Part shown: positions 17,856 to 34,058 of the stretch, piece by piece
Layout: each line of letters begins with the position of its first letter
How positions within the stretch are numbered: the first letter of the stretch is position 1
NCBI RefSeq assembly: GCF_003097495.1
Contig: NZ_QEOP01000002.1
Location: 1,054,001 to 1,118,000 of the forward strand
From: Amnibacterium flavum
GTDB taxonomy: Bacteria; Actinomycetota; Actinomycetes; Actinomycetales; Microbacteriaceae
Direction: 5' to 3'
Length of the DNA stretch: 64,000 bases
Made by a program: the position numbers and the translations under genes
The notes under the pieces: generated by a model
The model's database searches: none
Seen by the model: the letters and a program-made list of their open reading frames with translations, nothing else
Told to the model about the DNA's origin: nothing

Positions 17856-17856
17856 G

Positions 17857-19344: not shown

Positions 19345-19880
19345 CATTTCGCTGCGCTCAATGGGCGGGGCCGTCCGCGCTGCCGAGCCTGCCGCCGCTC
19401 ATTTCGACGGGCTCAATGGGCGGCGAGGCGCCCGCCCGCTGAGCGCAGCGAAGCGCAGGGACCTCGGCTGCGGACGCTCATTTCGCTGCGCTCATTGGGC
19501 GCGGCCGTGCGCGCTGCCGAACGTTCCGCCGCTCATTTCGACGGGCTCAATGGGCGGCTAGCTGCCCGCCCGCCCGCTGAGCCCGTCGAAGCGCAGGGAC
19601 ACTCGGCTCGGACGCTCATTTCGCTGCGCTCAATGGGCGGGGCCGTGCGCGCTGCCGAACCTCTCGCCGCTCATTTCGACGGGCTCAATGGGCGGCTAAG
19701 TGCCCGCCCGCTGAGCGCAGCGAAGCGAAGGGGCCCTCCGGCGGCCAGCGCCGCCCGCTGAGCCTGTCGAAGCGCGCCGGCCTCTGCTCCCGGCGCTCAT
19801 TTCGCTGCGCTCAATGGGCGGGGCCGCACGCACTGCCGAGCCCGTCCGCTCATTTCGCTGCGCTCAATGGGCGGGGCCTG
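19345..19880. repeat. Large palindromic repeat cluster
   Basis: Twelve units fill most of the 749-base gap between the APC permease start (19203) and the end of the kinase gene (19953). Forward units read CATTTCGCTGCGCTCAATGG or CATTTCGACGGGCTCAATGG plus GCGG; inverted units read CGCCCGCTGAGC followed by GCAGCGAAGCG or CCGTCGAAGCG. Approximate starts: 19346, 19398, 19430, 19480, 19533, 19570, 19616, 19672, 19704, 19752, 19798, 19851. Many steps are close to 50 bases and a three-unit block (forward GCTGCG, forward GACGGG, inverted) recurs three times, which points to growth by tandem duplication. The remaining 19204-19344 holds only the permease leader. Confidence 0.9.
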
Positions 19881-19952
19881 CCGCCCCCACGGGCCCGCGG
19901 GAGACGGAGTCGACCGTCGGGCACCACCAGTTGGCAGTGCCCGACGGGACCT

Positions 19953-20894
19953 CTAGCGCTGGACCTCGCCCATCGAGGTCAGCAGGTTCAGGTCGTCGCG
20001 GGTGGGGAGACCCTCCCAGTCGCCCTCGACGGTCACCGAGAACGCACCGCACTGCGACGCCGTCTGCAGCATCTGCTCCGGCGACGCCTTCGCGATCCAC
20101 TCGGCTAGATACCCCGCGGTGAACGCATCGCCGGCACCGATCGGGTCGAGCTCGTCCATCACGTACAGCGGCGCCGTGAAGCGGGTGCCGTCGATCACCG
20201 CGACCGCGCCGGCACGCCCGCGCTTGATGACGACCTGCTGCGAGCCCAGGGCTGCCAGACCCTCGGCGAGCTGCCAGTCGTCCTCGCCGTCGACGATGAG
20301 CCCCGCCTCGGAGTGCCCGGCGAAGACGATGTCCGCCCGCGCCGCGATCGAGCGCAGGACGGGTGCCGCTTCCTCGGCCGACCAGAGACCGGTGCGGTAG
20401 TTGACGTCGAACGAGACAGTCGTCCCGGCTGCGGACGCCACATCGATGGCATGCTCGACCGCCGCGCGCGCGGAGTCGCTCAGCGCGGGAGTGATGCCGG
20501 TCACGTGGAGGATCTCCGCCTGCTCGACAGCCGCGTCATCGACATCGGCGGGGGCGTATCGCGAGCCGGCGCTCGCGGCCCGGTAGTACTGCACCCGGCT
20601 CAGCCCCGCGGTGCGGCGCTCCTTGATCAGGAGTCCGGTGTTGGCGGTCCCGTCGACGATCGCATCCGTCAGGACGCCCTCACCGCGGAGAACCGAGGTG
20701 ATCAGACGACCGAACTCGTCGTCGCCGACCCGGCCCGACCACTCCGCTGCGACCCCGAGGCGAGCGAGACCGATCGCGACGTTCGCCTCGGCGCCGGCGA
20801 TGCCGAGCTTCATCAGCGGGGAATGCCGCAGGGGACCCGTCGTGGTGGACGAGATGCGCGCCATCGCCTCGCCGAGCGTGTAGACCTCAGCCAC
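19953..20894 (-). CDS. kdgK: 2-keto-3-deoxygluconate-type sugar kinase (PfkB family)
   Basis: A 313-residue ribokinase/PfkB-family kinase. Seen: N-terminal GIAGAEANVAIGLARLG substrate region, and the C-terminal signature DELDPIGAGDAFTAGYLAE with the catalytic Asp and anion hole GAGD. The Tyr-rich RVQYYRAASAGSRYAPADVD segment matches KDG kinases, which bind the carboxylate of 2-keto-3-deoxy sugar acids. It overlaps the upstream KDPG-aldolase gene by 8 bases and is last in an 11-gene leftward operon. Kinase plus aldolase form the lower Entner-Doudoroff step: phosphorylation at C6, then cleavage. The stereochemistry of the substrate (gluco, galacto or another) is open. Confidence 0.85.
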   Translation of the reverse strand: MAEVYTLGEAMARISSTTTGPLRHSPLMKLGIAGAEANVAIGLARLGVAAEWSGRVGDDEFGRLITSVLRGEGVLTDAIVDGTANTGLLIKERRTAGLSRVQYYRAASAGSRYAPADVDDAAVEQAEILHVTGITPALSDSARAAVEHAIDVASAAGTTVSFDVNYRTGLWSAEEAAPVLRSIAARADIVFAGHSEAGLIVDGEDDWQLAEGLAALGSQQVVIKRGRAGAVAVIDGTRFTAPLYVMDELDPIGAGDAFTAGYLAEWIAKASPEQMLQTASQCGAFSVTVEGDWEGLPTRDDLNLLTSMGEVQR

Positions 20895-21525
20895 GATCGG
20901 ACACCGCCTCGACAGCGCGACGTGCGCGCGCGGCGAGGGCGTCGAGCGAGCCGCCGGTGAGCGCGTCGCCGATCAGCGGCGAGCCGAGCCCCACGGCGAC
21001 GGCGCCCGCCGCCAGGTAGTCGGCGATCATGTCGAGATCGACGCCGCCCGTGGGAACGAGCGGGATGTAGTCGAGAGGTGCGAGCACGTTCTTGAGGTAG
21101 GACGGGCCGCCCATCGCGCTCGCCGGGAACACCTTCACGGCGGTCGCGCCGGCACGGTAAGCGGTGACGATCTCCGTCGGTGTGAGCGCGCCCGGGTACC
21201 ACCCCATCCCGGCGGCGATCCCGGCCTCGCCGACGAGCAGGTTCGTGTCGGGGGAGACGAGGAACTCCGCCCCCGCCGCCTTCGCCTGCTCAACATGCTC
21301 GACCGTGAGGACGGTTCCGACCCCGACGAGCACCTCCGGACGGGAGGCGAGCGCGGTGATGGCGTCCTGCCACCCCGGGGTGTTCGTCGTGATCTCGAGA
21401 CAGCGCACGCCGTTCTCGATGAGGGTCTCGGCCACCGGGATCACTCGGTCTTCGCGGCCACCCCGGAGGATCGCGATGATCGGACTCTCCTGGAGGACGG
21501 TGGGCAGCAGGGCCGACCTGTTCAT
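20887..21525 (-). CDS. eda: KDPG/KHG-type aldolase
   Basis: A 212-residue class I aldolase of the 2-dehydro-3-deoxyphosphogluconate/4-hydroxy-2-oxoglutarate family. Seen: PIIAILRG start strand, the Glu in RCLEITTNTPG, GVGTVL, FLVSPDTN, and the Schiff-base Lys in ATAVKVFPAS followed by LVPTGGVD phosphate-binding loop. It cleaves 2-keto-3-deoxy-6-phosphonates into pyruvate and an aldehyde. It overlaps the aminotransferase gene by 4 bases (ATGA) and the kinase by 8, so these three are tightly coupled. The family also accepts 4-hydroxy-2-keto acids, which matters for guessing the operon's substrate. Confidence 0.9.
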   Translation of the reverse strand: MNRSALLPTVLQESPIIAILRGGREDRVIPVAETLIENGVRCLEITTNTPGWQDAITALASRPEVLVGVGTVLTVEHVEQAKAAGAEFLVSPDTNLLVGEAGIAAGMGWYPGALTPTEIVTAYRAGATAVKVFPASAMGGPSYLKNVLAPLDYIPLVPTGGVDLDMIADYLAAGAVAVGLGSPLIGDALTGGSLDALAARARRAVEAVSDRG

Positions 21526-22667
21526 CGCATGGCTCCGATCCGCTCGATGCCGCGAGCGATGTCATCGCTGTCGGCTGCCAGAGAGAGTCTGGCCCACCCT
21601 TCGCCGCCGGCTCCGAACGCGGTGCCCGGCGCGATGGCCACCTGGTGCTCCTGCAACAACCGCACAGCCCAATCCTCCACGCTTCCTCCGGTCCGATCCG
21701 ACACGTCGATCCAGATGTAGAACGCACCCCGCGGCTCGACGAAGGGGATGCCGACCTCGGTGAGCTTCTCCATGGCGAGCACACGTCGCGATGCGTAGGT
21801 GTCGCGCATGAACGCGACCTGATCCTGGGGGCCGGTGAGCGCCGCGATCGCCGCGGCCTGGGCCGGGGCGTTCACACAGGCGACCATGGGCTCCTGCAGC
21901 TTCGCGGCGGTGGCGGCGACCCCGGGAGGCGTGACGAGGTATCCGACGCGCACACCGGTCATCGCGTAGGTCTTGGAGAAGGAGAACGCCGAGAGCACGA
22001 CGCCCTTCTCATCGAACCGGGCGGGGGACACGTGCTCGACCCCGTAGGTGAGCGCGTCGTAGCACTCGTCGGAGAGCAGCCAGATGTCGTTGCGCTCGGC
22101 GAAGCGCACGAGCTCCTCGATGACCTCTCCGGGGATGACCGTGCCGAGCGGGTTCGAGGGAGAGTTGACGAGCAGCACCCGGGTGCGCGGGGTGATGAGT
22201 TCCTGCAGCTCGGCGATGTCGGGGATGAACCCGCGCTCGGGCTTCAGCGCGTAGCGGACGGGAGTGGCCTGCAGCAGGCCGACGGCCATGGCGTAGTTCG
22301 GCCAGCCGGGATCGGGGATGAGAACCTCGTCGCCGGCCGCGATCGTCATCGACAGCGCGAGGTGCAGCGCTTGGGCTCCTCCGGCACTGACCACGATCTG
22401 GCTGGGGGACGCGTGGATGCCGTTCTGCTCGCGAACCTTCACGCTCAGCGCCTCGAGAAGTTCGGGCACCCCGGCGTTCGGCACGTAGTGCGTGTCGCCC
22501 GTCTCATAGGCGTTCTCGGCCGCGCGGAGCACATGCTCCGGGGGTACGAAGCTCGGTTCGCCCACGTGCATGCCGATGAACGGTTTGCCGGACGCCCAGG
22601 CGGCGTCCATGACACGTCGGATGCCCGATCGGGGCATGCGGTCGGCGGCGGGAGTGACGAGAGGCAT
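21522..22667 (-). CDS. Class I/II PLP-dependent aminotransferase
   Basis: A 381-residue fold-type I aminotransferase of the AspC-like group. Seen: HVGEPSFVPPEHVLRA, THYVPNAGVPELLEAL, SAGGAQALHLALS (PLP phosphate), NSPSNPLGTVIPGEV, DECYDAL (Asp to pyridine N), the Schiff-base Lys in SAFSFSKTYAMTGVRVGY, and RGAFYIWIDVS with Arg for the substrate carboxylate. It swaps amino and keto groups of a 2-amino acid. Placed directly before a KDPG-type aldolase and KDG kinase and after an M20 deacylase and importer, it probably makes the 2-keto acid that those enzymes use. The ribosome site AGGAGC precedes the ATG. No dehydratase gene is present, as would be expected in a normal sugar-acid pathway. Confidence 0.9.
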   Translation of the reverse strand: MPLVTPAADRMPRSGIRRVMDAAWASGKPFIGMHVGEPSFVPPEHVLRAAENAYETGDTHYVPNAGVPELLEALSVKVREQNGIHASPSQIVVSAGGAQALHLALSMTIAAGDEVLIPDPGWPNYAMAVGLLQATPVRYALKPERGFIPDIAELQELITPRTRVLLVNSPSNPLGTVIPGEVIEELVRFAERNDIWLLSDECYDALTYGVEHVSPARFDEKGVVLSAFSFSKTYAMTGVRVGYLVTPPGVAATAAKLQEPMVACVNAPAQAAAIAALTGPQDQVAFMRDTYASRRVLAMEKLTEVGIPFVEPRGAFYIWIDVSDRTGGSVEDWAVRLLQEHQVAIAPGTAFGAGGEGWARLSLAADSDDIARGIERIGAMR

Positions 22668-22745
22668 GGTGGTGCTGGTGCTCCTAGCGGTGGTTCAGGT
22701 GGTGGTGCGGATCAGGTGCGGGTGGTGCCGGTCGGATGGCGCGGG

Positions 22746-23666
22746 TCAGCGGGTGAGGGACAGCAGTCGGGCGACGGTCCCGCCGAGCACGTCGTCGCGT
22801 TCGGACGGGAAGAGGTCGGGGAGGGCGATGTCGACCACACCCGCCGTCGCGTCGTACCCGGGCTGCCGATCGATCCATGGGGAGTCGGACCCCCACATGG
22901 TGCGATCGGTGCCGAAGGCGGCGACGAGGCGACGCCCCGGAACCGCGAGGTCGGCGTAGGGGTACGGATCGGCCGACAGGGCGTAGTGGCCCGAGAACAT
23001 CAGGTGGAACCGCGGGTGGCGCGCCAACGCCTCGACCCGCCGCAGTTCGGACTCGGGGAAGGGGTCGACGAATCGGGGGCGGGCGAACTCGTCGACGCCC
23101 ATGTCGTGGGGGGCGAAGCCGAAGTGGTTGAGGACGACAGCGAGTCCGGGCAGCTCGCGGCCGACTTCGTCGAGCAGTCCGGTCTGATCGGGGCCGACGT
23201 AACTCCACAGGGCGACGCCGTCCTGCTCGAGACGAGCGAGCACCGGCCACATGGGGGAGTCGCGGATCGGAGCGCCCGGGTCACCGAGCCACATGGTGCG
23301 GAGTGCGCGGAACGGGAAGCCGACCCGGCGTCCGAGGTACGCCTCCACGGGATCGACGCCGATGCGCCCCTGTTCGGCGGGTGAGGCGACCGCGACCGCG
23401 GAGAACGACGCCGGCAGCGCGGCGAGGCTCGCGGCGACGTAGTCGTCGTGCGCATCGAGGGGGACGAGGACGGCGCCGTCGATGCCGGCGGCCGCGAGTC
23501 GTCCGAGGTAGTCGGCGAGCGGGGCGGTCCGGTCGGCGGGAGCGAGCTCGTCAACCCCGCGCGGCGACTCCGCGGCGGGCAGGAAGACGTGCGCGTGCGC
23601 GTCGATCCGGAGCGGCGCCTCGTCCCTCGCGTCGCTCGTTGCAGTGGTGTCCGCCGTCACCGTCAC
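22746..23666 (-). CDS. Amidohydrolase family 2 (TIM-barrel) protein
   Basis: A 306-residue metal-dependent hydrolase. The N-terminal metal motif is RIDAHAHVF at about residues 19-27; FSGHY and WGSDSPWID supply later metal ligands, as in the amidohydrolase_2 family (lactonases, decarboxylases, PDC hydrolases). The start is the GTG at 23666, which overlaps the permease stop by four bases (GTGA); the frame stays open far upstream but that is the shadow of the permease. In this operon a lactonase for a sugar-acid lactone, or a cyclic amide hydrolase, would fit; decarboxylation is also possible. The natural reaction cannot be told from sequence. Confidence 0.85.
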   Translation of the reverse strand: MTVTADTTATSDARDEAPLRIDAHAHVFLPAAESPRGVDELAPADRTAPLADYLGRLAAAGIDGAVLVPLDAHDDYVAASLAALPASFSAVAVASPAEQGRIGVDPVEAYLGRRVGFPFRALRTMWLGDPGAPIRDSPMWPVLARLEQDGVALWSYVGPDQTGLLDEVGRELPGLAVVLNHFGFAPHDMGVDEFARPRFVDPFPESELRRVEALARHPRFHLMFSGHYALSADPYPYADLAVPGRRLVAAFGTDRTMWGSDSPWIDRQPGYDATAGVVDIALPDLFPSERDDVLGGTVARLLSLTR

Positions 23667-24658
23667 CGCCGCCGCTTCGCGACGAAGACCGCCACCGCGG
23701 CGATGATGATGACGCCGCGGATCAGATCGGTGATGGTCGAGGGGAACTGCAGCAGCGTGATCGAGTTGGTGATCAGCGACAGCAGCGCGACGCCGCCCAT
23801 CGTTCCGAGCAGTGTGCCGCGACCGCCGAGCAGCGAGGTGCCGCCGATGACGACGACCGTGATGGCGGACAGCTCGAGGCCGTCGCCGGCCGTGGGGGAG
23901 CCGATCGACGAGCGCGCGGCGAGCAGGATCCCCGCGACTGCGGCGAGAAGTCCGGAGGTGACGTAGACCCAGATGAGAACCCGGTTCGTGCTGATACCCG
24001 CAGCGCGGGCCGAGTGCAGGTCGCCGCCGACCGCGAAGACCTGCTTGCCCCAGACGGTGCGGTTCAGCAGGAACCAGATGATGGCGATCGCGAGTGCGAG
24101 CACGACGAAGGAGAGCGGGATGGGGCCGAGCTTGCCGAAGGCGAACTCGGTCAGCGCCGAGGTGACCTGGCCGGCGGGCGTGCTGCTGATCCAGAGTGCC
24201 GCACCGCTGACGAGGTAGAGCATGCCGAGCGTGACGATGAACGGCGGCATGTTCAGCTTGGTGACGAGCAGCCCGTTGATGGTGCCGAGGAGGGCTCCTA
24301 GCGCGAGCATTCCGAGGATGACGGGGAAGGTGCGGATCGGGTAGCCGTCGATCAGCACCGCGGTCAGCAGGGTCGTGATGGTGACCATCGAGCCGACCGA
24401 CAGGTCGATCCCGCCCGACAGGATGACGGTGTGCTGCCCGAGCGCGACGAGTCCGAGGACGACGGCCGAGGTGAGGAGTGCGGCGATGTTGCCGGTGCTC
24501 CAGAAGGCGCCGCCGCGCATGACCGACAGCACGACGATGAGGACGGCGACGATCACCCAGACGGCTGCGCCGCGGCGGACCGCGGTGGCGACCCAGTCGC
24601 GGACGGTGCGTCCGGCGCTCGGTGCGGGTGCGGGCGAGGGGGCGAGGGTTGCGGTCAT
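23663..24658 (-). CDS. RbsC-type ABC transporter permease (second)
   Basis: A 331-residue permease of the branched-chain/ribose type with about 9-10 transmembrane helices. Seen: GQHTVILSGGIDLSVGSMV, the family signature in helix 2-3, PPFIVTLGMLYLVSG, WGKQVFAVGGDLHSARAAGI (coupling loop contacting the ATPase) and VVVIGGTSLLGGRGTLLGTM. A 25-residue Pro/Ala-rich head precedes the first helix. Its ATG overlaps the ATPase stop (ATGA). A different permease of the same family lies in this operon (27387-28418), so the importer is probably a heterodimer, which is not the usual ribose-type homodimer. Confidence 0.92.
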   Translation of the reverse strand: MTATLAPSPAPAPSAGRTVRDWVATAVRRGAAVWVIVAVLIVVLSVMRGGAFWSTGNIAALLTSAVVLGLVALGQHTVILSGGIDLSVGSMVTITTLLTAVLIDGYPIRTFPVILGMLALGALLGTINGLLVTKLNMPPFIVTLGMLYLVSGAALWISSTPAGQVTSALTEFAFGKLGPIPLSFVVLALAIAIIWFLLNRTVWGKQVFAVGGDLHSARAAGISTNRVLIWVYVTSGLLAAVAGILLAARSSIGSPTAGDGLELSAITVVVIGGTSLLGGRGTLLGTMGGVALLSLITNSITLLQFPSTITDLIRGVIIIAAVAVFVAKRRR

Positions 24659-26151
24659 GATTCGGTTCCCAACGCAAGGTGCATGATCTTCTCCGAGCTC
24701 TCCGGATCGCGGGCGACCTCGCCGACGACCGCTCCGTCGCGGAAGACGAGGACTCGGTGGGAGAGTCCGATCACCTCGGGCAGCTCGCTCGAGGCGACGA
24801 GGATCGCCATCCCCTGGGCGGCGAGCTCGGTGATGATGCGGTAGATCTCGCTCTTCGCGCCGACGTCGACGCCGCGCGTCGGTTCGTCGAGCAGCAGCAC
24901 CCGCGGCCCGACGCGCAGCCACTTGGCGATGACGATCTTCTGCTGGTTCCCGCCCGACAGCTGCTTCGCGAGCTGCGCTCCGCTCGATGAGCGGATGCCG
25001 AGACGGTCGCGCTCCTCGGCATAGGCGGCCGCTTCTCTGGCTCCGCTGATCCAACCGGCGGTGCTGATCGAGCCGAGGGCGGTGAGGGTGGTGTTCTGGC
25101 CGACGGGCAGCTCGAGCACGAGGCCGTCGCGTTTGCGCTCTTCGGGCACGAGGACGACGCCGGCGCCGATGGTCGCACCGAGGGAGGCGCGGAGGGGGCG
25201 ACCTCCGACGGAGACGCGGCCGTCACCGCGCTGGCGCACGCCGGCGAGGGTCTTGAGCAGTCGGGATCGGCCGGATCCGACGAGTCCGGCGAGACCGACG
25301 ATCTCGCCTGCGCGGAGTTCGAGGCTGACCGGCACGCAGTCCGCGCCGCGCGGCACGACGCCTTCGACCGAGAGGACGACCTCGTCCCTCCGGTCGGCAG
25401 GGTCGGGGAACACGGAGTCGACCTGGCGGCCGACCATCTCGCGCACGATCCGCTCCATCGGGTACTCGCTCGCGGGACCGGTGGAGACGAAGCGGCCGTC
25501 GCGCAGGATCGTGACGTCGTCGGCGAGGTCGCGGACCTCGTCGAGGAGGTGGGTGATGTAGACGACGGCGGTGCCCTCGGCGACGATCGAGCGCACCACG
25601 GTGTGGAGCGCCTCGAGCTTGTCGCCCGACAGCACGGCCGACGGCTCGTCGAGGATGAGCACATTGCTCTTCGAGACCAGCGCTCGGGCGATCTCGACGA
25701 GCTGCTGGTTCGCGAGCGACAGGTCGCCCGCGATGGTGTTCAGGTCGAGCCCGCCGAGCGTCACACGCTCGAGGGCCCGCCGGGCGTGCTCCCGCTGCTC
25801 CCGCAACCGGAGCACGCCACGGCGTGCGGACTCGTGTCCCAGCATCACATTGTCGAGCACGCTCATCTCGGGGAGCACGGTGAGCTCCTGGTAGACGGGC
25901 GTGACACCGACCGCGAGCGCGTCGCGGGGGCTGCCGAAGCTCATCTCCTCGTCGCCGACGATGACGGCACCGCTGTCGGGTGCCTGGTCGCCGGTGAGGA
26001 TCTTGATAAGGGTCGACTTGCCCGCGCCGTTCTCTCCGAGGAGCGCGTGGACGCGTCCCGGAGCGCACGCGAAGGTGACGTTCTCGAGGGCCCGGACACC
26101 CGGGAAGGACTTCGTCACTTCCCGGGCGCCGAGGGCGATGGTGGGGGCCAT
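24655..26151 (-). CDS. RbsA/MglA-type ABC transporter, duplicated ATPase
   Basis: A 498-residue tandem ABC ATPase. First half: Walker A GENGAGKST at 39-47, LSLANQQLVEIARAL signature, Walker B VLILDEPSAVLS, with THLLDE. Second half: degenerate P-loop GLVGSGRSRLL, signature LSGGNQQKIVIAKWL, Walker B VLLLDEPTRGVDVG. This pattern (first signature altered, second P-loop degenerate) is normal for the sugar-type RbsA family. It sits 39 bases after the binding-protein gene and overlaps the permease gene. The Walker B Ser-Ala-Val-Leu-Ser substitution of the usual D-loop is family-like, not a defect. Confidence 0.93.
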   Translation of the reverse strand: MAPTIALGAREVTKSFPGVRALENVTFACAPGRVHALLGENGAGKSTLIKILTGDQAPDSGAVIVGDEEMSFGSPRDALAVGVTPVYQELTVLPEMSVLDNVMLGHESARRGVLRLREQREHARRALERVTLGGLDLNTIAGDLSLANQQLVEIARALVSKSNVLILDEPSAVLSGDKLEALHTVVRSIVAEGTAVVYITHLLDEVRDLADDVTILRDGRFVSTGPASEYPMERIVREMVGRQVDSVFPDPADRRDEVVLSVEGVVPRGADCVPVSLELRAGEIVGLAGLVGSGRSRLLKTLAGVRQRGDGRVSVGGRPLRASLGATIGAGVVLVPEERKRDGLVLELPVGQNTTLTALGSISTAGWISGAREAAAYAEERDRLGIRSSSGAQLAKQLSGGNQQKIVIAKWLRVGPRVLLLDEPTRGVDVGAKSEIYRIITELAAQGMAILVASSELPEVIGLSHRVLVFRDGAVVGEVARDPESSEKIMHLALGTES

Positions 26152-26190
26152 GAGCCTTTTCCTTCTACTGCTCGATCAGGGTCGAGGTGA

Positions 26191-27390
26191 TCAGGCGTTG
26201 CAGATGCCGAGCGACACGAGGAGATCCTCGGGTGCACTCGAGGGCACGAGCAGACCGCCGTCGCAGTCCTCACGGGCGTACTGCGCTCCGTCTTCGTTGG
26301 TGAACGAAGGCGAGTCGATGTACACCTTGTTGAGCACCGGCTCACCCTTGAGGAGGTCCACTGCCGTGTCGAGGCAGGTGGAGCTCATCTCGGGCGGGAA
26401 GGTCGACAGCGCGTACTTGACGTCGGTTCCCTCTGCGGCCTGGATGAAGTCGTTGATGGCGTCACCGGTGATCGGCGGCACCTCCTTGCCGGCTTCCTGG
26501 TAGGCCTGGATCACACCGACGCTGCCGTAGCCCGAGTCGGACCAGATGGCGTCGAGGTCGGGGTAGCTGGCGATCAGGTTCTGCGCGACGGTCTTCGCGA
26601 CGGTGGGCGACCACTCGGTGTACTGGGTGGTGACGACCTCGATGCCGGGGTACTTGGCGAAGGTCTTCTCAGCGGCGGCCTTCTGGTACTCGGCCGTCGG
26701 AACGCCGGCGAGGCCGGACAGGATCGCGACCTTGCCCTCTCCGCCGATCTGCGAGGCGATCCACTCGGCGTACGCCGAGCCGAGGAGGTCGTACTGGCGG
26801 GTCACCGTCGAGGTGGCGCCGGCGCTGTCGGGCAGGACGCCCGAGCAGAGGACGACGGGGATGCCGGCGTCGGTGGCGGCCTTGACCTGGCCCGAGATGC
26901 CCTCGCCCATGGGGACGACGACCATGGCGTCGGGGTCCTGGCTGGTGAGCTGCTCGATGTTGTCGACCTGGGTGGTCGCATCGCCGTTGGCCGATGCGTA
27001 GAGCACGTCGACGCCGAGCTCGTCGGCGTGGTACTCGAGCGCCTCTTCGCTCAGGACGCCCCACGAGTTGTTGGGTCCCTGTGCGGCGAAGGCGATGCGG
27101 TAGGTGTCGTCCTGCTTGGGCTCGGCCTCCCAGACGGTGGCGTCGACCTCGCAGACCTCTTCCTCGACCGGCTCGAAGTCGGTGAGCCCGAATGCGTCGG
27201 CCACCGAGCTCCAGGACTCGGCGTACGAGGCCTGGGCCTCGTCGGCGTTGATGCAGTCTTCGGCCGCGGCGGTGGTGCCTTCGCCTTCACGCTCGGCGCT
27301 ACAGCCGGCGACCGCGATGAGGGTCGCGAAGCCGACGGAGGCGGCGAGGATGCGGACGGCGCCGCGTCGACGGAACGCTGTGTTCGTCAT
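26191..27390 (-). CDS. Sugar-type ABC transporter binding lipoprotein
   Basis: A 399-residue lipoprotein; lipobox VAGC puts the lipidated Cys at residue 30. The mature part begins with an unusual acidic region of about 70 residues with several Cys (EDCINADEAQ, EEEVCEVDATVWEAEP), then a periplasmic-binding-protein I fold of the ribose/galactose type: YRIAFAAQGPNNSWGVLSEE, DPDAMVVVPMGEGISG, GIPVVLCSGVLPD and DAIWSDSGYGSVGVIQA. The extra Cys pairs (also STCLDT, EDCDGG and LGICNA) suggest disulfides outside the membrane. It is longer than typical RbsB (about 300). Its ATG overlaps the upstream permease stop (ATGA). The ligand is unknown; the operon suggests an acylated amino or sugar acid. Confidence 0.9.
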   Translation of the reverse strand: MTNTAFRRRGAVRILAASVGFATLIAVAGCSAEREGEGTTAAAEDCINADEAQASYAESWSSVADAFGLTDFEPVEEEVCEVDATVWEAEPKQDDTYRIAFAAQGPNNSWGVLSEEALEYHADELGVDVLYASANGDATTQVDNIEQLTSQDPDAMVVVPMGEGISGQVKAATDAGIPVVLCSGVLPDSAGATSTVTRQYDLLGSAYAEWIASQIGGEGKVAILSGLAGVPTAEYQKAAAEKTFAKYPGIEVVTTQYTEWSPTVAKTVAQNLIASYPDLDAIWSDSGYGSVGVIQAYQEAGKEVPPITGDAINDFIQAAEGTDVKYALSTFPPEMSSTCLDTAVDLLKGEPVLNKVYIDSPSFTNEDGAQYAREDCDGGLLVPSSAPEDLLVSLGICNA

Positions 27391-28418
27391 TGCTTTCCTT
27401 TCATTGATGTTGCTCTGGTGGTGGGGGAGGGGAAGAAGAACCGGCGACCCTGCAGGAAGACGGCGAGGAGGATGACGGCGCCCGAGACGACGAGCTGCGC
27501 ACCTCCGCCGGCGCCGAGCTGGATGAGCCAGGTGAGGAGGACGGCGAGGAGGACGACGCCGAGAACGGTCTGGGCGATGCGCCCCTTGCCGCCGGTGAGC
27601 GCGATGCCTCCGATGACGGCGGCGGCGACCGAGTCGAGGTCGAGGTTGCGGACGAGGGCCGCGTCGACGAAGCCGATGAAGCTCGCGTTGACGAGGCCGG
27701 CGAGCACGCCGGTCAGTGAGGAGATCAGGTAGCAGGCGGCGATCACGATCCCGGTGCGGATGCCCGACATGCGGGCCGCGTCGCCGTTGAGTCCGGTCGC
27801 GTAGACCCGTCGCCCCGCGGTGGTCCTGCCCAGGACCAGACCCGTGGCGAGGGCGAGGATGGCAAACACGATGAGCGGCACGGGGATGAAGTCGAAGAGG
27901 CGGCCGCCACCGAGCCAGGACAGGGCGGGCGGGATGTCACCGGACGGAGCACCGCGGGTCCAGGCGATGATGACGCCCTGGATGAGCACGAATGACGCGA
28001 AGGTCGCAACGAACGGCGGGACGTTGCGCAGGACCACGAGGCCCGCGTTGACGAGTCCGACGGCGAGACCGGCGAGCACGGAGAGCACGATGCCGACGAC
28101 GAGCTTGTCGTCGCTGCCTGCGCTGTAGGTGGCGAGCACGACGGAGGTGAGAGCCATCACGCCGCTGATCGAGAGGTCGATGCCGCCGACGAGGAGAACG
28201 AGGGTCTGGCCGATCGCGGCGATGCCGATGAGACCGACCTGGAAGAGGACGAGCCTGCTGACCTCGAAGGAGAAGAACTGCGGGGTGGTGATGGCGGCGA
28301 GGATCAGCACGACGACGAGCCCGGCGAGCGGGGCGATGAAGCTCGAGGCGCGGGCGAGTCGGCCCGGCCCGGCCTCGGTCGGCGGTGCGGGTGGGGTCGT
28401 GACGGGTGCTGTCGTCAT
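27387..28418 (-). CDS. RbsC-type ABC transporter permease (first)
   Basis: A 343-residue permease with about 9-10 transmembrane helices. Family marks: GQTLVLLVGGIDLSISGVMALTS, VPPFVATFASFVLIQGVI, GRRVYATGLNGDAARMSGI (coupling loop) and AVIGGIALTGGKGRIAQTVLG. It starts at ATG 28418, overlapping the M20 gene's stop, and ends inside the binding-protein start. Together with the second permease it should form the membrane channel of one importer. The Pro/Thr-rich first 25 residues are cytoplasmic. Confidence 0.92.
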   Translation of the reverse strand: MTTAPVTTPPAPPTEAGPGRLARASSFIAPLAGLVVVLILAAITTPQFFSFEVSRLVLFQVGLIGIAAIGQTLVLLVGGIDLSISGVMALTSVVLATYSAGSDDKLVVGIVLSVLAGLAVGLVNAGLVVLRNVPPFVATFASFVLIQGVIIAWTRGAPSGDIPPALSWLGGGRLFDFIPVPLIVFAILALATGLVLGRTTAGRRVYATGLNGDAARMSGIRTGIVIAACYLISSLTGVLAGLVNASFIGFVDAALVRNLDLDSVAAAVIGGIALTGGKGRIAQTVLGVVLLAVLLTWLIQLGAGGGAQLVVSGAVILLAVFLQGRRFFFPSPTTRATSMKGKQ

Positions 28419-29623
28419 GCGCGGTCCTCTCGCGGCGAGGGGCAGAAGTCCTCGATGAGGTTTCGGTAGAGGTCGACGCTGCGGCGGACGGCATCGACCG
28501 ACACCCATTCGTCGGCGCCGTGGGCCCGGACGAGGAGTCCGGGGCCGAGAGCGGGGAGGCAGGGGAGCCCGTCGCGGGCGAACCAGCTGGTGTCGGTCGT
28601 TCCGGGGAAGACCGAGAGGGGAAGGGCCGCCCCGAAGGCGGTCTCGGTGGCGCGGGCGAGCGACACGACCAGCGGGTCGGACGCGGCGACCTGCGTGCCC
28701 TCGATCCAGTGGTTGGGCGCGTTGTCGAAGTCGATCTCGACGTGTGCACCCGACTCGGCGAGCCACGGCGCGATCGCCGCGCGCAGGTCGGCGAGCAGTT
28801 CGACGTCGGTCATCCCGGGGAGGGTGCGGACCTCGATCGTCGAGCTGACCGACTGCGGCAGCACGCCGTAGCCCCAACCGCCGGAGAAGGTCATGGCCGG
28901 GTTCACGGTCGCCGCCCAATCGCGGAGACCGTCGGCGTCGGCCGGGATGGCGGGGCTCGCAGTGCGGCGGAGCGCCGACAGGGCGTCCGCGAGGTCGGCA
29001 CCCGCGTTCGGCCGCCCGAGCATGGCGGAGAGACTGGAGTGACCCTGGATGCCGTGGGCGGTGATCCGGAATCGACCCAGCCCGCGGCTGACCAGGTGCA
29101 GGCTGTCGTAGTCGGAGTGGATTCCTCCCGGCTCGCCGATCACGAGGGCGTCGGCTCCGAGGTCGAGGACTTCGGAGAGATGCTTGGCGCCGAACACGGC
29201 ACCGTTCTCCTCATCCGCCGTGAACAGCAGGGTGAGCCTGCCGGCGGTGACGGTGCCCGCGGCGACGACCTGTCCCGCGGCGACGACCATGGCCGCGACG
29301 GCGCCCTTCATGTCGGCGGAGCCGAGCCCGTAGAGGCGGTCGCCGTCGACATCCGCTGCGAACGGGTCGACGGTCCAGTGCGCCTCGCCGACGGGTTTGG
29401 TGTCGATGTGCCCCGACAGGACGAGGTGGGACCCGCCGGGACCGAAGTCGATGGTGACGAGCAGGTTCGGCCGACTCGGATCGAGCGCGATGACCTCGGC
29501 CCGGGGAAGTCCGGCTTCCGCGAGGGCGCCCTGGAGCACCGCAGCGACGGCGAGCTCGTCGCCGTCCAGCACAGGGCTGGGCGTCTGCACGAGCTGTCGT
29601 GTCAGTGCGATGACGTCGGTCAC
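28415..29623 (-). CDS. M20-family metallopeptidase/deacylase (ArgE/DapE-like)
   Basis: A 402-residue M20 hydrolase, usual length for ArgE/DapE. Zinc and catalytic residues seen: LSGHIDTKPVG (His and catalytic Asp), GLGSADMKGA (bridging Asp), TADEENGAVFGAKH (catalytic Glu followed by Glu ligand), ALVIGEPGG (Glu ligand position), and GTTDTSWFARDG; the dimerisation domain contains GIQGHSSLSAMLGRPNA. Enzymes of this family remove acyl groups from N-acyl amino acids or cut dipeptides. It precedes a transporter and aminotransferase, fitting deacylation of an imported N-acyl amino acid before transamination. The start ATG has GAGTC/GGGGG upstream and stands 66 bases after the PNPOx gene. Confidence 0.9.
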   Translation of the reverse strand: MTDVIALTRQLVQTPSPVLDGDELAVAAVLQGALAEAGLPRAEVIALDPSRPNLLVTIDFGPGGSHLVLSGHIDTKPVGEAHWTVDPFAADVDGDRLYGLGSADMKGAVAAMVVAAGQVVAAGTVTAGRLTLLFTADEENGAVFGAKHLSEVLDLGADALVIGEPGGIHSDYDSLHLVSRGLGRFRITAHGIQGHSSLSAMLGRPNAGADLADALSALRRTASPAIPADADGLRDWAATVNPAMTFSGGWGYGVLPQSVSSTIEVRTLPGMTDVELLADLRAAIAPWLAESGAHVEIDFDNAPNHWIEGTQVAASDPLVVSLARATETAFGAALPLSVFPGTTDTSWFARDGLPCLPALGPGLLVRAHGADEWVSVDAVRRSVDLYRNLIEDFCPSPREDRA

Positions 29624-29689
29624 GGGGGAGTCTCCGGGGGAAGGAAGCAGGAAGCGCGGGGAGCGGCGGGAGGTAGAGCGGAGGAGCGG

Positions 29690-30178
29690 CTACTCCTTGT
29701 ACTTGTCCGCCCACTCGACGCCCTGCCAGGTCTGCAGGCTGATCGGGTCGAGGCGGATGAGCCAGCGCTGCTTGTCGAGCGTCGGGGCCAGATACTTCGG
29801 GCCGTTCTCACCGAGATAGCGGGTCGACATGCGCTCGGCGATAGGAACCCAGGCCCCGCCGACGTTCGGGGTCTCGACGACGACCGCCTTGCACTGGGCG
29901 GAGACCTTTCGCTGCCCGCCGTCCTCGTCGATCGTGACCGCGCAGCGCTCGTTGTCCGCGAGGAACTGGGCCCACGCCGACCTCTTGCGGGCGACGACCC
30001 AGAAGGAGGAGCCGTCCCACTCGTGCCAGCACGGAACGACGTACGGCCAGCCGTTGCCGTCGAGGCAGGCGAGGCGGGTGATGATGCCCTCGCCGAGGAA
30101 CTCGTCGAGCTCTCCGCCGCGGAGGGCTCCGATCTTGCCGCGCCAGGTCTCGTCCTGGGGACTCTGCTGCTCGCTCAT
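29690..30178 (-). CDS. PNPOx-like flavin-binding-fold protein
   Basis: A 162-residue protein of the pyridoxamine 5'-phosphate oxidase-like split beta-barrel fold: GIITRLACLDGNGWPYVVPCWHEWDGSSFWVVAR is characteristic (strand pairs, Trp and Arg), then SAWAQFLADNERCAVTIDED and KVSAQCKAVVVE. Members bind FMN, F420 or haem and act as oxidoreductases or in reductive degradation. True PNPOx activity is unlikely because the family is diverse. ATG 30178 overlaps the IclR stop (ATGA). It may oxidise or reduce the operon's substrate, or be a sensor; not clear. Confidence 0.8.
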   Translation of the reverse strand: MSEQQSPQDETWRGKIGALRGGELDEFLGEGIITRLACLDGNGWPYVVPCWHEWDGSSFWVVARKRSAWAQFLADNERCAVTIDEDGGQRKVSAQCKAVVVETPNVGGAWVPIAERMSTRYLGENGPKYLAPTLDKQRWLIRLDPISLQTWQGVEWADKYKE

Positions 30179-31047
30179 CGGGCGATTCCTTCCTGCTGCG
30201 CCGCGGGGGCGGTCTCGGTGTCGGGGAATGGGGGTGCGGCGTCCGGGCCGCGGTAGCCGACGCGGGCGGACAGCTCCATCGCGGCGGCGACGACGCGCGG
30301 CGCGAACCGGTCGACGTGGTCACGCGTGAAGCGGTAGGCGGGGGCGGAGACGCTGATGGCGGCGACCACCTGCCCGAGGTGGTCGCGCACCGGGGCGGCG
30401 ACGCAGCGGACGCCCTCCTCGTTCTCGATCTCGTCGATCGCGTAACCGCGGTCGCGAATGGCGTCGAGCTCGATGGAGAGGGCGTCGCGGTCGGTGATGG
30501 TGTTCTCGGTGCGCCGGACGAGGTCGCCCTGGAGGAGGCTCTCTCGGCGTTCGGGCGACGAGTAGGCGAGGAGGGTCTTGCCGATCCCCGTGCAGTGGAG
30601 CGGGTTGCGGGAACCGATCCTGGCGGCGGGCCTGACCGGCTGGGGACTGCTGACCGCGGCGACGTAGAGGACCGTGTTGCGGTCGAGGACGCCGAGGAAG
30701 CTGGTCTCGTTCGTCTCGTCGACGAGGTCCTCGATGATGTCGAACGCGAGCCGGGAGATGTCGAGCGTGTTGAGGAACGCCTGGCCCCAGCCGGCGACGC
30801 GGGGACCGAGCTCGTAGAGACCGCGCGCCTCGACGCGCACGATGTCGAGCTCGACGAGCACGTCGATGAGGCGGACGGCGGTGGCGTGGGGGAGTCCGGT
30901 CGAGGCGGCGATATCGGTGAGGCGAAGGGGGCGCGGACTGGCCGCGAGGAGGTCGACGATGGCGATGCCTTTGACCAGACCCTTGGCGGATCCGGAAATG
31001 GACGAGAGGTCCATATTCGTTTCGGACATGTCGTCCATATTGGCCAT
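30175..31047 (-). CDS. IclR-family transcriptional regulator, head of operon
   Basis: A 290-residue regulator. The winged HTH lies at about 20-85: SGSAKGLVKGIAIVDLLAAS, LRLTDIAASTGLPHATAVRLI (recognition helix), then the wing RGLYELGPRV. The C-terminal ligand-binding domain has ETSFLGVLDRNTVLYVAAVS, RNPLHCTGIGKTLLAY (conserved in IclR) and GVRCVAAPVRDHLGQVVAAISVSAP. Four in-frame ATG codons lie near the N-terminus (residues 1, 4, 7 and 12); the first has GAGGGG four bases upstream and is used here. As first gene of the 11-gene leftward operon it is likely autoregulated and responds to the operon's substrate or product. Confidence 0.9.
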   Translation of the reverse strand: MANMDDMSETNMDLSSISGSAKGLVKGIAIVDLLAASPRPLRLTDIAASTGLPHATAVRLIDVLVELDIVRVEARGLYELGPRVAGWGQAFLNTLDISRLAFDIIEDLVDETNETSFLGVLDRNTVLYVAAVSSPQPVRPAARIGSRNPLHCTGIGKTLLAYSSPERRESLLQGDLVRRTENTITDRDALSIELDAIRDRGYAIDEIENEEGVRCVAAPVRDHLGQVVAAISVSAPAYRFTRDHVDRFAPRVVAAAMELSARVGYRGPDAAPPFPDTETAPAAQQEGIAR

Positions 31048-31208: not shown

Positions 31209-34058
31209 ATGGCCACCTCACGAGGGAGTCGATCACCGACCATGCATCGCATCGCACCGGCCGTCGCCCTGATCGCCGCCGTCCTGGTCGGCGCTCTCGT
31301 TCCCGCAGTCTCCGCCCAGGCGATCAGCACAGCGACGCCCGAACCGACGGACAGCGCCACCGTCCCGGATGAGAGCGCCTTCGTCGAGGTGGCCGCGGGC
31401 CCGGGACAGCCGGGCACCATCGAGATCGATACGAGCACCTACCTGCCGGACGTCACTCCCGCCCCCGCCGTGCTCCTCGCCCACGGGTTCGGGGGTTCGA
31501 AGCTCGACCTCGCCGCTCAGGCCGTCCATCTGCGAGACCTCGGCTACGTCGTCCTCACCTACACCGCGCGGGGGTTCGGCGAGTCCGGCGGTCTGATCTC
31601 GCTCGACTCGCTCGACTACGAGGTCGCCGACGCCCGCGCCCTCGTCGATGTTCTCGCCGAGCGCGACGATGTCATCCGGGACGGCGCCGACCCCGAGGTC
31701 GCCGTCGCGGGCGGTTCGTACGGGGGAGCGCTCGCCCTCATGCTCGGCGCGACCGACCCGCGGATCGACACGGTGGTCGCGGCGATCACCTGGAACGATC
31801 TGGCGAGCGCGCTCGTACCGAATGCGGTACGGCCTGATGCGGCGAGCGCCGAGGGAGATACTCCCGCGCCGCTCGAGACCGATCAGCCGGGTGTCTTCAA
31901 ACAGGCGTGGGCGAGTCAGCTCTTCGGCGCGGGCGCGTCGCCCGACAGTGCCTGCGGTCGTTTCACGCCGGAGCTCTGCGAGCTGTACAGCGGCCTGATC
32001 GCGGGCTACCCGCTCGACGACGGTGCGCTCGCGCTGCTCGATCGGTCGTCACCGGCGAGCGTTCTCGATGAGATGACCGCCCCGACTCTTCTGCTCCAGG
32101 GCACCCAGGACTCGCTCTTCGGACTCGACCAGGCCGACGCGAACGCCCGGCAGATCGATTCCGCGGGCGCCGACGTGAAGGTGGTCTGGTTCGAGGGCGG
32201 TCACGACGCGGGCGGCCAGGCCTCAGGCGCCGGGGAGTCCACCGAGGAGACGACCGACGCATGGTTGGCGGAGCACCTGCCCGTCGATGGCGGATCGGCC
32301 GCGGACGACGCTGCGGGATCCACCTTCGTCTACAGCGTGCCGTCGAACTCCACCCGTTCCGCGGAGACCCAGGAGGCCCCGTCGTATCCGGGGCTGAGCG
32401 GAGCGGACGGGGTGGTGAGCACCGACGTCCCGATCGGCGGAGTGCCCACGACGATCGCCAACCCGCCCGGGGGCCTCCCCGCGGTGATCACGTCCTTGCC
32501 AGGTCTCGGCTCGCTTCTCGGCGGACTGGGCGCGGCGGCCCTCTCGGCACCCCAACCCGGCCAGACCGCCGCTTTCGTCTCCGCCGAGCTCACGGATCCC
32601 GTCACCCTCGTGGGTTCCCCATCCGTGACGGTGCGGGTGTCCCGCGGCTCCGACACCGTCGACTCCGACGTCCCCACTGGCGGCGCCCCGGCGGATTCGG
32701 GGGCCGTGCTCTTCGTCGCGCTGTACACGGTCGACGGTGACAACCGTCGACTCGTGGGCGGCACGGTTGCGCCGGTCCGCATCGCCGACCTGGCTGCCGA
32801 CGGGACGCCCGTCTCGGTGGACGTGGCACTCCCGGCGAGCGCCGCGACCTTCACCGCAGGAACGCGGCTCGCCGTCAGCGTCGGCACGACGGATGCCCTC
32901 TACCGCTCCGAGCCGGCAGCGGCCCGCTACACCGTGGATGCGACCGGCGTCATCGCGCTGCCGACCGTCCCCACCGCGACGACGACCGACGCCAAGGGGG
33001 TCGCGCCGGCCGGGACCCTCCTCGGCATCGCCGGGGTTCTCGTCATCGCCGCCCTCCTGGGTCTCGTCGCTCTGGTGCGCGGCCGCCGACGTGCCCGGAT
33101 TCCGGCCTCATCGCCCGCTATCGCCGACCCGGCAGCCCCCGATGCGCCACCGCTCGTGCTGCGTGGACTGGTGAAGAACTTCCGCAACGGGCAGAGAGCC
33201 GTCGACGATCTGTCGTTCACCGTGCGGAAGGGCCAGGTCCTCGGACTCCTCGGGCCGAACGGCGCGGGCAAGACGACGACGTTGAGGATGGCCGTCGGTC
33301 TGCTGCGACCCGATGCGGGCACCTCCGAGATCTTCGGCGAGACCGTCCGCACGGGGGCGGCCGTCCTCACGAGGGTGGGGACCTTCATCGAGGGTCCCGG
33401 GTTCCTCCCCCATCTGTCCGGACGCCGCAACCTCGAACTGTTCTGGGCGGCGTCCGGTCGTGCGCTCTCCGAAGCCCGGATGGATGAGGCGCTCATGATC
33501 GCCGACCTCGGTCCTGCCATCTCGCGGAAGGTGCGCGGCTACAGCCAGGGCATGCGGCAGAGGCTCGCGATCGCTCAGGCCATGCTCGGCATGCCCGAGC
33601 TCCTCATCCTCGACGAGCCGACGAACGGACTCGATCCGCCGCAGATCCACGCCCTGCGAGGGGTGCTCAGAAGGTATGCCGAGAGCGGGCGGACTGTCAT
33701 CGTCTCCTCGCATCTGCTCGGCGAGGTGGAGCAGACCTGCACCGATGTCGTCGTCATGGCGAGGGGCCGACTGATCGCCGCAGGAACCGTCGCCGAACTC
33801 GCGGGCGAGGCGGGCGAGGTGACCTTCGAGGTGACGGACGGGGAGGCGGCGCTGGCGGTCGTCTCGTCGCTCGAGGTGGAGGACGCGCGGCTCACCGCTG
33901 CGACGACCCTGCGCGTAGCCCCCGGCTCGGTCGATACCGAATCGATCGTCGCTGCGCTCGTGGCGGCGGGCGTCGGGGTCCGCAGCGTCGTGCGCGGCCG
34001 CCACCTCGAGGAGACGTTCCTCGACCTCGTCGATCCCGGAAGCACGGTACGGAGATGA
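31209..34058 (+). CDS. Secreted alpha/beta hydrolase fused to ABC-2 type ATPase
   Basis: A 949-residue fusion. Start ATG 31209 with GGGAG upstream. Residues about 13-37 form a signal peptide or anchor (IAPAVALIAAVLVGALVPAV). Residues about 65-350 are an alpha/beta hydrolase of the X-Pro dipeptidyl-peptidase/CocE-like type: LLAHGFGGSKLDLA, TARGFGESGG, nucleophile elbow AGGSYGGA with Ser170, and PTLLLQGTQDSLFG plus WFEGGHDAGG for Asp and His. A beta-rich part follows (to about 590) with Pro/Gly linkers, then a transmembrane helix at about 601-623 and an Arg-rich stop-transfer. From about 645 an ABC ATPase: Walker A LLGPNGAGKTTTL (about 682), signature YSQGMRQRLAIAQAML, Walker B LLILDEPTNGLDPP and SSHLLGEV. 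Topology predicts enzyme outside, ATPase inside. The permease gene overlaps its end. Confidence 0.88.
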   Translation: MATSRGSRSPTMHRIAPAVALIAAVLVGALVPAVSAQAISTATPEPTDSATVPDESAFVEVAAGPGQPGTIEIDTSTYLPDVTPAPAVLLAHGFGGSKLDLAAQAVHLRDLGYVVLTYTARGFGESGGLISLDSLDYEVADARALVDVLAERDDVIRDGADPEVAVAGGSYGGALALMLGATDPRIDTVVAAITWNDLASALVPNAVRPDAASAEGDTPAPLETDQPGVFKQAWASQLFGAGASPDSACGRFTPELCELYSGLIAGYPLDDGALALLDRSSPASVLDEMTAPTLLLQGTQDSLFGLDQADANARQIDSAGADVKVVWFEGGHDAGGQASGAGESTEETTDAWLAEHLPVDGGSAADDAAGSTFVYSVPSNSTRSAETQEAPSYPGLSGADGVVSTDVPIGGVPTTIANPPGGLPAVITSLPGLGSLLGGLGAAALSAPQPGQTAAFVSAELTDPVTLVGSPSVTVRVSRGSDTVDSDVPTGGAPADSGAVLFVALYTVDGDNRRLVGGTVAPVRIADLAADGTPVSVDVALPASAATFTAGTRLAVSVGTTDALYRSEPAAARYTVDATGVIALPTVPTATTTDAKGVAPAGTLLGIAGVLVIAALLGLVALVRGRRRARIPASSPAIADPAAPDAPPLVLRGLVKNFRNGQRAVDDLSFTVRKGQVLGLLGPNGAGKTTTLRMAVGLLRPDAGTSEIFGETVRTGAAVLTRVGTFIEGPGFLPHLSGRRNLELFWAASGRALSEARMDEALMIADLGPAISRKVRGYSQGMRQRLAIAQAMLGMPELLILDEPTNGLDPPQIHALRGVLRRYAESGRTVIVSSHLLGEVEQTCTDVVVMARGRLIAAGTVAELAGEAGEVTFEVTDGEAALAVVSSLEVEDARLTAATTLRVAPGSVDTESIVAALVAAGVGVRSVVRGRHLEETFLDLVDPGSTVRR

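Follow-up and report, generated by a model that had tools for sequence, protein, structure and literature searches.

How might a bacterium reach a 2-keto-3-deoxy sugar acid with a gene cluster that holds a kinase and an aldolase of the types acting on such acids, and no dehydratase? The question is raised by an operon of Amnibacterium flavum (Microbacteriaceae), located in a stretch of 64,000 nucleotides (positions 1,054,001 to 1,118,000 of contig NZ_QEOP01000002.1, assembly GCF_003097495.1), in the following called the window. Eleven complete in-frame open reading frames (ORFs), each with start and stop codon, run on the minus strand from window position 31047 to 19953 and encode, in this order, an IclR regulator, a PNPOx-like protein, an M20 deacylase, a permease, a binding protein, an ATP-binding cassette (ABC) ATPase, a second permease, an amidohydrolase, a class-I pyridoxal phosphate (PLP) enzyme, an aldolase of the 2-keto-3-deoxy-6-phosphogluconate/2-keto-4-hydroxyglutarate (KDPG/KHG) type and a PfkB kinase. 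An earlier sequence-only reading had listed the same genes and families, which are borne out by our ORF check and the Pfam and NCBIfam searches, and had described most genes as coupled by 4-base overlaps. This is a fair description: 6 of the 10 junctions overlap by 4 bases and one by 8 bases, and the others leave gaps of 66, 39 and 78 bp. Its statement that a dehydratase is missing holds for the operon and fails for the genome, which has seven MR_MLE_C and two ILVD_EDD matches.

Our interpretation is that the operon serves to take up an N-acyl 2-amino-2-deoxy sugar derivative and to degrade it oxidatively by a non-phosphorylating route, an assignment which we regard as plausible and stop short of calling probable. 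The ribose-type ABC system would import a neutral N-acyl amino sugar or its lactone, the amidohydrolase would convert the lactone to the N-acyl hexosaminate, and the M20 enzyme would take off the acyl group. The PLP enzyme would then act as an ammonia-lyase, eliminating first the C3 hydroxyl and then the nitrogen, to give 2-keto-3-deoxygluconate (KDG) or -galactonate, which the kinase would phosphorylate and the aldolase would cleave to pyruvate and glyceraldehyde 3-phosphate. With an ammonia-lyase in the fourth step, no separate dehydratase would be required. The IclR protein would control the operon via twin repeats at its own start.

A system with a similar sequence of reactions is the ong cluster of Pseudoalteromonas prydzensis. 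According to the excerpts of PMC9537276, it processes oxidised chitin from N-acetylglucosaminate (GlcNAc1A) via glucosaminate (GlcN1A) and KDG to KDG-6-phosphate: OngB deacetylates GlcNAc1A, OngC, a fold-type III PLP deaminase of the D-amino-acid type, yields KDG and ammonia, KdgK phosphorylates, and the authors suppose that a KDPG aldolase follows; a RidA-family gene is essential. OngB is described in the excerpts of PMC12017989 as a D-aminoacylase-like barrel of the D-amino-acid type. As far as these excerpts cover ong, both systems combine deacylation, PLP-dependent nitrogen loss and a KDG kinase in the cluster with the lack of a dehydratase, whereas the deacylase has a D-aminoacylase fold there and is a Peptidase_M20 here, and the PLP enzyme is of fold-type III there and belongs to Aminotran_1_2 here. 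Since two of the defining enzymes are of unrelated folds, the operon is not a member of the ong family. Ong has its own sodium symporter, beta-hexosaminidase, RidA and MurR/RpiR regulator, as far as described, and the window operon its own ABC importer, lactonase-like protein, PNPOx-like protein, IclR regulator and an aldolase inside the operon. By analogy, the conserved operon best fits a variant of direct amino-sugar-acid deacylation and deamination and would be a non-orthologous version of this rare route.

The component enzyme kinds are already known; their combination is undescribed in the open-access literature searched. If our interpretation is true, direct deacylation and deamination to 2-keto-3-deoxy acids evolved at least twice, from D- and from L-amino-acid enzymes, and a function is provided for three jointly conserved groups, namely an uncharacterised clade of the aminotransferase family, a lactonase and a PNPOx-like family. 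The gene set would then be a marker for actinobacteria recycling oxidised amino sugars, as well as a caution against naming all such PLP enzymes transaminases. A stereochemical counterpart of ong, in which a new family of fold-type I 2-amino-2-deoxyaldonate ammonia-lyases and an M20 deacylase act on the 2S (mannosaminate) series and the PNPOx/F420-type protein oxidises the sugar to the lactone, would amount to an entire actinobacterial oxidative N-acetylhexosamine pathway without phosphorylation before the keto acid; we consider this very improbable.

Enzymes and importer of the proposed pathway

Pfam places ten of the eleven proteins, the ABC ATPase not included, in IclR_C, PNPOx_N, Peptidase_M20, BPD_transp_2 (twice), Peripla_BP_4, Amidohydro_2, Aminotran_1_2, KDPG/KHG Aldolase and PfkB, and NCBIfam, which likewise covers ten proteins (IclR not included), is the source of the family call for the ABC ATPase. 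Among the NCBIfam matches listed, the aldolase alone passes its cut-off (TIGR01182, eda, 180.3 bits vs 156.05), and substrates are for this reason not to be inferred from annotation.

The lower part of the route has the same kinase and aldolase families, with their catalytic residues, as the lower branch of the Entner-Doudoroff pathway (KdgK and Eda); here, as proposed, a PLP enzyme feeds it in place of a dehydratase. The kinase (313 aa, positions 19953..20894, minus strand as all operon genes) has the Thermus KDG kinase 1v19 as its best PDB match (208 bits), in good agreement with the KDG type assigned before. Its YYR..SAGS and NYR..LW stretches align, and all 8 rows compared retain Tyr103, Arg105, Arg167 and Asp256, which we take to hold the keto acid, whereas three have Asp in place of Tyr104. 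The score of 215.1 bits stays under the curated KDG kinase equivalog cut-off of 400 (NF040938). All 8 rows compared retain the Schiff base Lys131 and Glu44 of the aldolase (212 aa, 20887..21525). No other PF01081 match was found in the genome of the window, and the earlier assignment of the aldolase to the KDPG type is supported as well.

Deacylation is predicted for the M20 protein of the ArgE/DapE type (402 aa, 28415..29623; Peptidase_M20 114 bits). H72, D104, E138, E139, E164 and H368, presumably the two-metal ligands and the catalytic Glu, are kept in 12 of 13 rows, the exception being the broken gene of locus L105. This retention supports the deacylase call; the protein stays under the curated subfamily cut-off (TIGR01910, 156.3 bits vs 217.6).

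The sequence-only reading had suggested that the amidohydrolase (306 aa, 22746..23666; GTG start at 23666, overlapping the permease stop codon; Amidohydro_2 90.4 bits) may open a lactone, and the modelled fold speaks for it. An AlphaFold model built from 15 sequences (predicted local distance difference test, pLDDT, 93.9) was compared with the PDB by Foldseek, where 8 of the first 13 ranks (1-5, 9, 10 and 13) are labelled COG3618 or pyrone-dicarboxylate hydrolase (4dlf, 4do7, 2ffi, 4i6k, 4d8l, 4di8, 4dia and 4di9). 4dlf is, as we take it, an L-fucono-1,5-lactonase, and 6uvz and 4mup, which fill ranks 6-8, 11 and 12, are presumably kin of COG3618 lactonases; the first decarboxylase follows at rank 14. 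These 13 matches show template modeling (TM) scores of 0.64-0.74 at 15-22% identity. H14, H169 and D249 are invariant and H12 is nearly so. The protein thus shares the fold and the HxH...H...D pattern with COG3618 lactonases such as L-fucono-1,5-lactonase and LigI, but is only 19-22% identical to the five best structures and far below the lactonase cut-offs (4-sulfomuconolactone hydrolase, 26.1 bits vs 500; L-fucono-1,5-lactonase, 20 vs 400). Based on the model, we predict a COG3618-type lactonase.

The importer comprises two permeases (27387..28418, ribose type, BPD_transp_2 93.4 bits; 23663..24658, 138.5 bits), a double ABC ATPase of the AraG/RbsA type (24655..26151; NCBIfam AraG, 493 bits, below the cut-off of 689) and a lipoprotein binding protein (399 aa, 26191..27390; Peripla_BP_4 164 bits), which a PDB search assigns to the carbohydrate uptake transporter 2 (CUT2)/ribose type (best matches 4rsm, 4rs3 and 5hko). 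Lys and Arg are absent from the binding protein at the twelve positions that align with the presumed ribose contacts of RbsB, which itself has two. Judged from these residues, a neutral ligand fits better than the N-acyl acid which the sequence-only reading had imported.

The PNPOx-like protein (162 aa, 29690..30178; PNPOx_N 37.1 bits) is modelled as a split barrel (pLDDT 88.9) whose closest PDB folds are F420, flavin and heme proteins. No PDB sequence match was found at 0.01, and the protein stays under the cut-off for F420-dependent PPOX oxidoreductases (TIGR03618, 34.7 bits vs 79.05).

L (2S) alpha-amino acids are the usual substrates of the M20 and class-I PLP families, and glucosaminate has the 2R configuration. 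From these enzyme families a 2S epimer, e.g., N-acetyl-D-mannosaminate, is expected, and we consider the 2S (mannosaminate) series more likely than 2R N-acetylglucosaminate. GlcNAc1A was kept as a candidate for the exact substrate and ranked behind the 2S epimer on account of the L-type enzyme families and the lack of LPMO_10.

Occurrence of the gene set

Matches to all eleven proteins cluster in seven non-redundant loci besides the window; a search of this kind in relatives had been proposed along with the sequence-only reading. In one of the locus searches, the best 80 of 141 confirmed loci were retained. Because all eleven recur together in seven other loci, the gene set is not due to chance. 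The hosts are Phycicoccus (L014 and L015), Naasia (L016), another Microbacteriaceae genome (L109), Nitriliruptor-type genomes (L104 and L115, with L022 and L029 representing the same places) and a genome from another family in the class (L114, G1126). In the Naasia locus, which is the same place as the same-genus match in G003, the eleven proteins are 73-86% identical to those of the window (tblastn). The IclR match of L104 and L115 lies on the opposite strand and is only 33% identical, and in L104, L115 and L114 permease 2 is followed by kinase and aldolase, amidohydrolase and PLP enzyme.

Across the loci, the PNPOx-like protein, M20, amidohydrolase and PLP enzyme vary least in their presence; aldolase and kinase form a separable module. 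A partial set was found in Pseudonocardia (L093), with a frameshifted PLP gene, fragments of other genes and a contig end. L102 combines PNPOx and PLP enzyme with a distant M20 (25%), a metallo-beta-lactamase-fold hydrolase and a cytosine/purine-type permease; a DapA-family fragment in this locus, the match of which spans only profile positions 117-276 of 289, was not used as a substitute aldolase.

The gene set is a conserved unit but rare. At an E-value of 1e-25, the PNPOx protein was found in 8 of 396 sampled genomes of the phylum, the own one included, and three of these (L106-L108) show other contexts. At 1e-35 it occurs in 2 of 394 sampled genomes of the class, again with the own one, and in 2/39, 1/24 and 2/66 genomes of three other classes, counting the genomes that prompted those searches. 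Four of 398 genomes of the family, the own one among them, have a close PLP enzyme (1e-125). A comparison of the PNPOx protein with plasmids gave no match. In L106 and L107, its relative (43% and 40% identical) adjoins genes which we read as glutamine-synthetase-like and as a second type of amidohydrolase, and the family may serve other nitrogen-compound pathways as well.

Several observations weigh against the proposed breakdown of an amino sugar derivative. A C1 dehydrogenase is absent from the operon, and the lactone-forming oxidation is not encoded there unless by the PNPOx-like protein. LPMO_10 was not found in the genome of the window, and oxidised chitin is therefore not an obvious source. 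The dehydratase-family genes elsewhere in this genome, of which one ILVD_EDD match is expected to be an ordinary IlvD, imply that other KDG routes may feed the same kinase and aldolase. Two Geodermatophilus operons carry the full set minus aldolase and kinase, and a dnaX-like gene comes after it; together with these dehydratase-family genes, they weaken the argument that the earlier reading drew from the missing dehydratase. L103 is without PLP enzyme, aldolase, kinase and IclR. L105 retains only PNPOx, M20, amidohydrolase and PLP enzyme, again without aldolase and kinase; its PNPOx and M20 genes are broken, and it was excluded from the PNPOx alignment. In L060 and L067, PNPOx, PLP enzyme and amidohydrolase stand with a peptide-type ABC system, and no M20 match lies within the stretch examined. 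More distant binding proteins keep one Arg, those of L104, L115, L114 and L103 at the position of the ribose contact Arg141, and those of L018 and L056 carry an Arg beside the Arg90 position. The PLP enzyme is nearest to ordinary aminotransferases, both among NCBIfam models and PDB structures, and no feature of its sequence proves elimination. Finally, its relatives adjoin an enolase-type dehydratase and an FAH hydrolase (L069), an aspartate-dehydrogenase-like gene (L027), or hydantoinase or amidase genes (L017, L019 and L111; Hydantoinase_B confirmed in L111), and because these neighbours vary, the family is not one of a single function.

In favour of the proposed breakdown, the gene run of L114 has a short-chain dehydrogenase at one end and a zinc dehydrogenase at the other, which could be lactone makers; two FAH-family genes are near, and one of them has 2,4-didehydro-3-deoxy-L-rhamnonate hydrolase as its closest match (253 bits against a cut-off of 500). 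Likewise in favour, L067 carries a gene of the RidA family, as ong does. Downstream of the operon in L109 lies a gene for an F420 glucose-6-phosphate dehydrogenase (curated equivalog match, 644.5 bits vs cut-off 420), which is probably housekeeping and was not taken as evidence.

The PLP enzyme and competing explanations

The PLP enzyme (381 aa, 21522..22667; Aminotran_1_2 224.9 bits) belongs to a family which we take to be of fold type I, and is predicted to be an ammonia-lyase or else an aminotransferase. Lys232, Asn172, Asp200, Tyr203, Arg360 and Tyr61 of the PLP site are kept in all compared rows save the frameshifted L093. At the position of Lys109 of the Thermus aspartate aminotransferase, presumably the recogniser of the side-chain carboxylate, the window has Ala98, all 15 rows carry A, M, V or I, and the aligned PDB row carries Ser. 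For want of this Lys, an aspartate aminotransferase was rejected as a reading.

A transaminated 2-amino-2-deoxyaldonate is a 2-keto aldonate that keeps its C3 hydroxyl, and is no substrate for KDG kinase or KDPG aldolase. The lyase is favoured over the transaminase because an ordinary 2-amino-2-deoxy aldonate is all it requires to arrive at the same keto-deoxy acid, by a route published in PMC9537276 as far as its excerpts go. That an enzyme annotated as class I/II aminotransferase can eliminate a hydroxyl is known from GntC, according to the excerpts of PMC10367076; the window enzyme scores 279 bits against the GntC model (cut-off 415). Another known ammonia-lyase also gives a 2-keto-3-deoxy acid, but acts on a phosphorylated acid, as far as the literature excerpts describe it. 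We take that enzyme to be PLP-using and of a SelA-like family, unlike the PLP enzyme of the window.

The best reading is still the one suggested before, in which a PLP enzyme acts after deacylation and forms a 2-keto-3-deoxy acid, and what does not stand is the PLP enzyme being necessarily a transaminase: transamination calls for an unlikely 2-amino-3-deoxy substrate, and ammonia loss leads to the same product. This earlier route would start from an N-acylated compound, either a gamma-hydroxy amino acid or a 2-amino-3-deoxy sugar acid, and lead through deacylation, true transamination and phosphorylation to cleavage. The aminotransferase family with its retained PLP site and the KDG/KDPG type of kinase and aldolase agree with it, and KHG-type aldolases accept 4-hydroxy-2-keto acids. 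However, a simple gamma-hydroxy amino acid would need no kinase, the binding protein is without a basic residue at the compared positions, and a free 2-amino-3-deoxy sugar acid is, to our knowledge, not a common natural compound. We judge true transamination unlikely.

The gene neighbourhood of PLP-enzyme relatives speaks for our interpretation and bears on a second alternative. With a linkage criterion of at least 60 bits over more than half of the query, which is loose for PfkB and stricter for the aldolase, matches to both aldolase and kinase lie near the PLP enzyme in 14 loci out of 66 with a length of at least 12 kb, these 66 being the best PLP-enzyme matches and not a random sample. Six of the 14 are of this operon type and eight are others (L024, L026, L030, L039, L043, L046, L084 and L089); L030 and L039 belong to the same species, as two of its strains, and L024 and L026 stem from near relatives. 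Eight repeat or short-copy loci (L001, L002, L003, L013, L094, L022, L029 and L016) were left out of the count, which removed the positive Naasia locus L016/L003 and a partly seen locus of G005. On the PLP-enzyme tree, from which the paralog L107 was left out and to which the window row was added, the 15 linked rows, among which the window is counted, require 10 changes, of which 8 or more are forced, vs a shuffled mean of 14.1. Neighbours in the other linked loci include tungsten aldehyde oxidoreductase, DUF917/S-Me-THD, hydantoinase-like, xanthine-dehydrogenase-like or D-threonine-aldolase-like genes.

The recurrent proximity of the PLP gene to both aldolase and kinase genes in other clusters, as well as the 4-base overlap of aldolase and PLP genes in the window, speaks against an imported conjugate, of which M20 and an aminotransferase would process the amino-acid half and kinase and aldolase the sugar-acid half, with any dehydratase coming from elsewhere. 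Such a division of labour would suit the separable aldolase-kinase pair, present in the seven further loci and absent from the two Geodermatophilus operons, and the dehydratase could be provided by the MR_MLE_C and ILVD_EDD genes of the genome; we nevertheless hold it to be improbable.

An N-acyl or cyclic amino-acid (hydantoin- or lactam-like) pathway with incidental aldolase and kinase is quite improbable, because the importer here is of the CUT2 sugar type, the amidohydrolase model is lactonase-like and aldolase and kinase co-occur in seven further loci, even though close PLP relatives adjoin hydantoinase or amidase genes (L017, L019, L111), L067 joins PNPOx, PLP enzyme and amidohydrolase with a peptide-type ABC system, an amidase and a RidA-family gene, and L102 has its cytosine/purine-type permease. 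Degradation of acyl-homoserine lactones (lactonase, acylase, homoserine, aldolase) was rejected, as the sugar importer and the KDG-type kinase do not fit. The same holds for vitamin B2 degradation: PMC12746152 cites COG3618 chemistry, and no such gene set is seen in its excerpts. Degradation of vitamin B6 was likewise weighed and not adopted.

The genome of the window encodes two paralogs of the PLP enzyme (47% and 45%; L110 and L111, at G000:C2:522914 and C1:1398510), of which one stands alone and the other near HpcH-like aldolase and hydantoinase genes. In the Firmicute loci L024, L026, L043 and L049, a double ABC ATPase, ferredoxin-like genes and an aldehyde ferredoxin oxidoreductase (Pfam-confirmed in L043) accompany the PLP enzyme, and L024, L026 and L043 add DUF917, a KDPG-type aldolase and a KDG-type kinase. 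Positions 4863-11772 of L084, from a Nocardioides metagenome-assembled genome, hold DUF917 (S-Me-THD), a HyuA-like gene, a KDG-type kinase, a SnoaL-like gene, an F420-type LLM oxidoreductase, the PLP enzyme and an aldolase.

Regulation and neighbouring features

Two inverted repeats of the form ATGGAC-N5-GTCCAT, spaced exactly 24 bp, are located at the start of the iclR gene (290 aa, 30175..31047; IclR_C 170.6 bits, HTH_IclR 49.2 bits). The first (31022..31038) matches in 10 of 12 arm positions, and the second (30998..31014) is perfect and the sole exact match in the genome of the window. All seven loci compared (window, L014, L015, L016, L018, L056 and L109) have the pair at this same distance, with arm scores of 20-22 of 24, the lowest (20) in L016 and L018. 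When the six non-window loci were scanned on either strand, 249,886 placements in all, 12 scored at least 20, namely the six sites on each strand, and the next reached 17. The repeats overlap codons. A conserved triplet reads TCC in 13 of 14 sites (CCC in the other), compared with 29% TCC among the serine codons of the operon, which suggests conservation at the DNA level. We infer that the twin repeats are a candidate IclR operator. The true iclR start may lie at an internal Met overlapping them.

The pair was not found in the distant loci L102-L105, L114, L115, L060, L067 and L093 (best score 14-17), of which L103, L105, L102, L060, L067 and L093 are damaged or without a linked IclR match. 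With up to one mismatch, the repeat has 6 sites in the genome of the window vs 4 for a reversed-pattern control, and thus gives no sign of a wider IclR regulon there. Over 8 genomes, 48 sites stand against 29 for the control; in G034, which has the operon, the ratio is 13 to 2, and in G007, in which no close operon was found, 8 to 2. A promoter scan found no sigma-70-like site. Directly 3' of the last stop codon, a hairpin (19908..19952, minus strand; -34.2 kcal/mol, z -6.09) is the probable transcript end, without a U run.

Just downstream of the operon, positions 17676-19871 carry dispersed short repeats, CCCATTGAGCGCAGCGAAATGAGC, in 10 copies with up to 3 mismatches where none is expected, which flank an amino-acid permease gene on both sides. 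A second repeat, CGCTTCGACAGGCTCAGC, occurs eight times in the window when up to 2 mismatches are allowed, and five of these copies lie at 17520-19774. On the other side, and divergent from the operon, an ORF of 949 residues (31209-34058) unites in a single polypeptide an ABC ATPase domain and an S15/alpha-beta hydrolase that has a PepX_C-like part.

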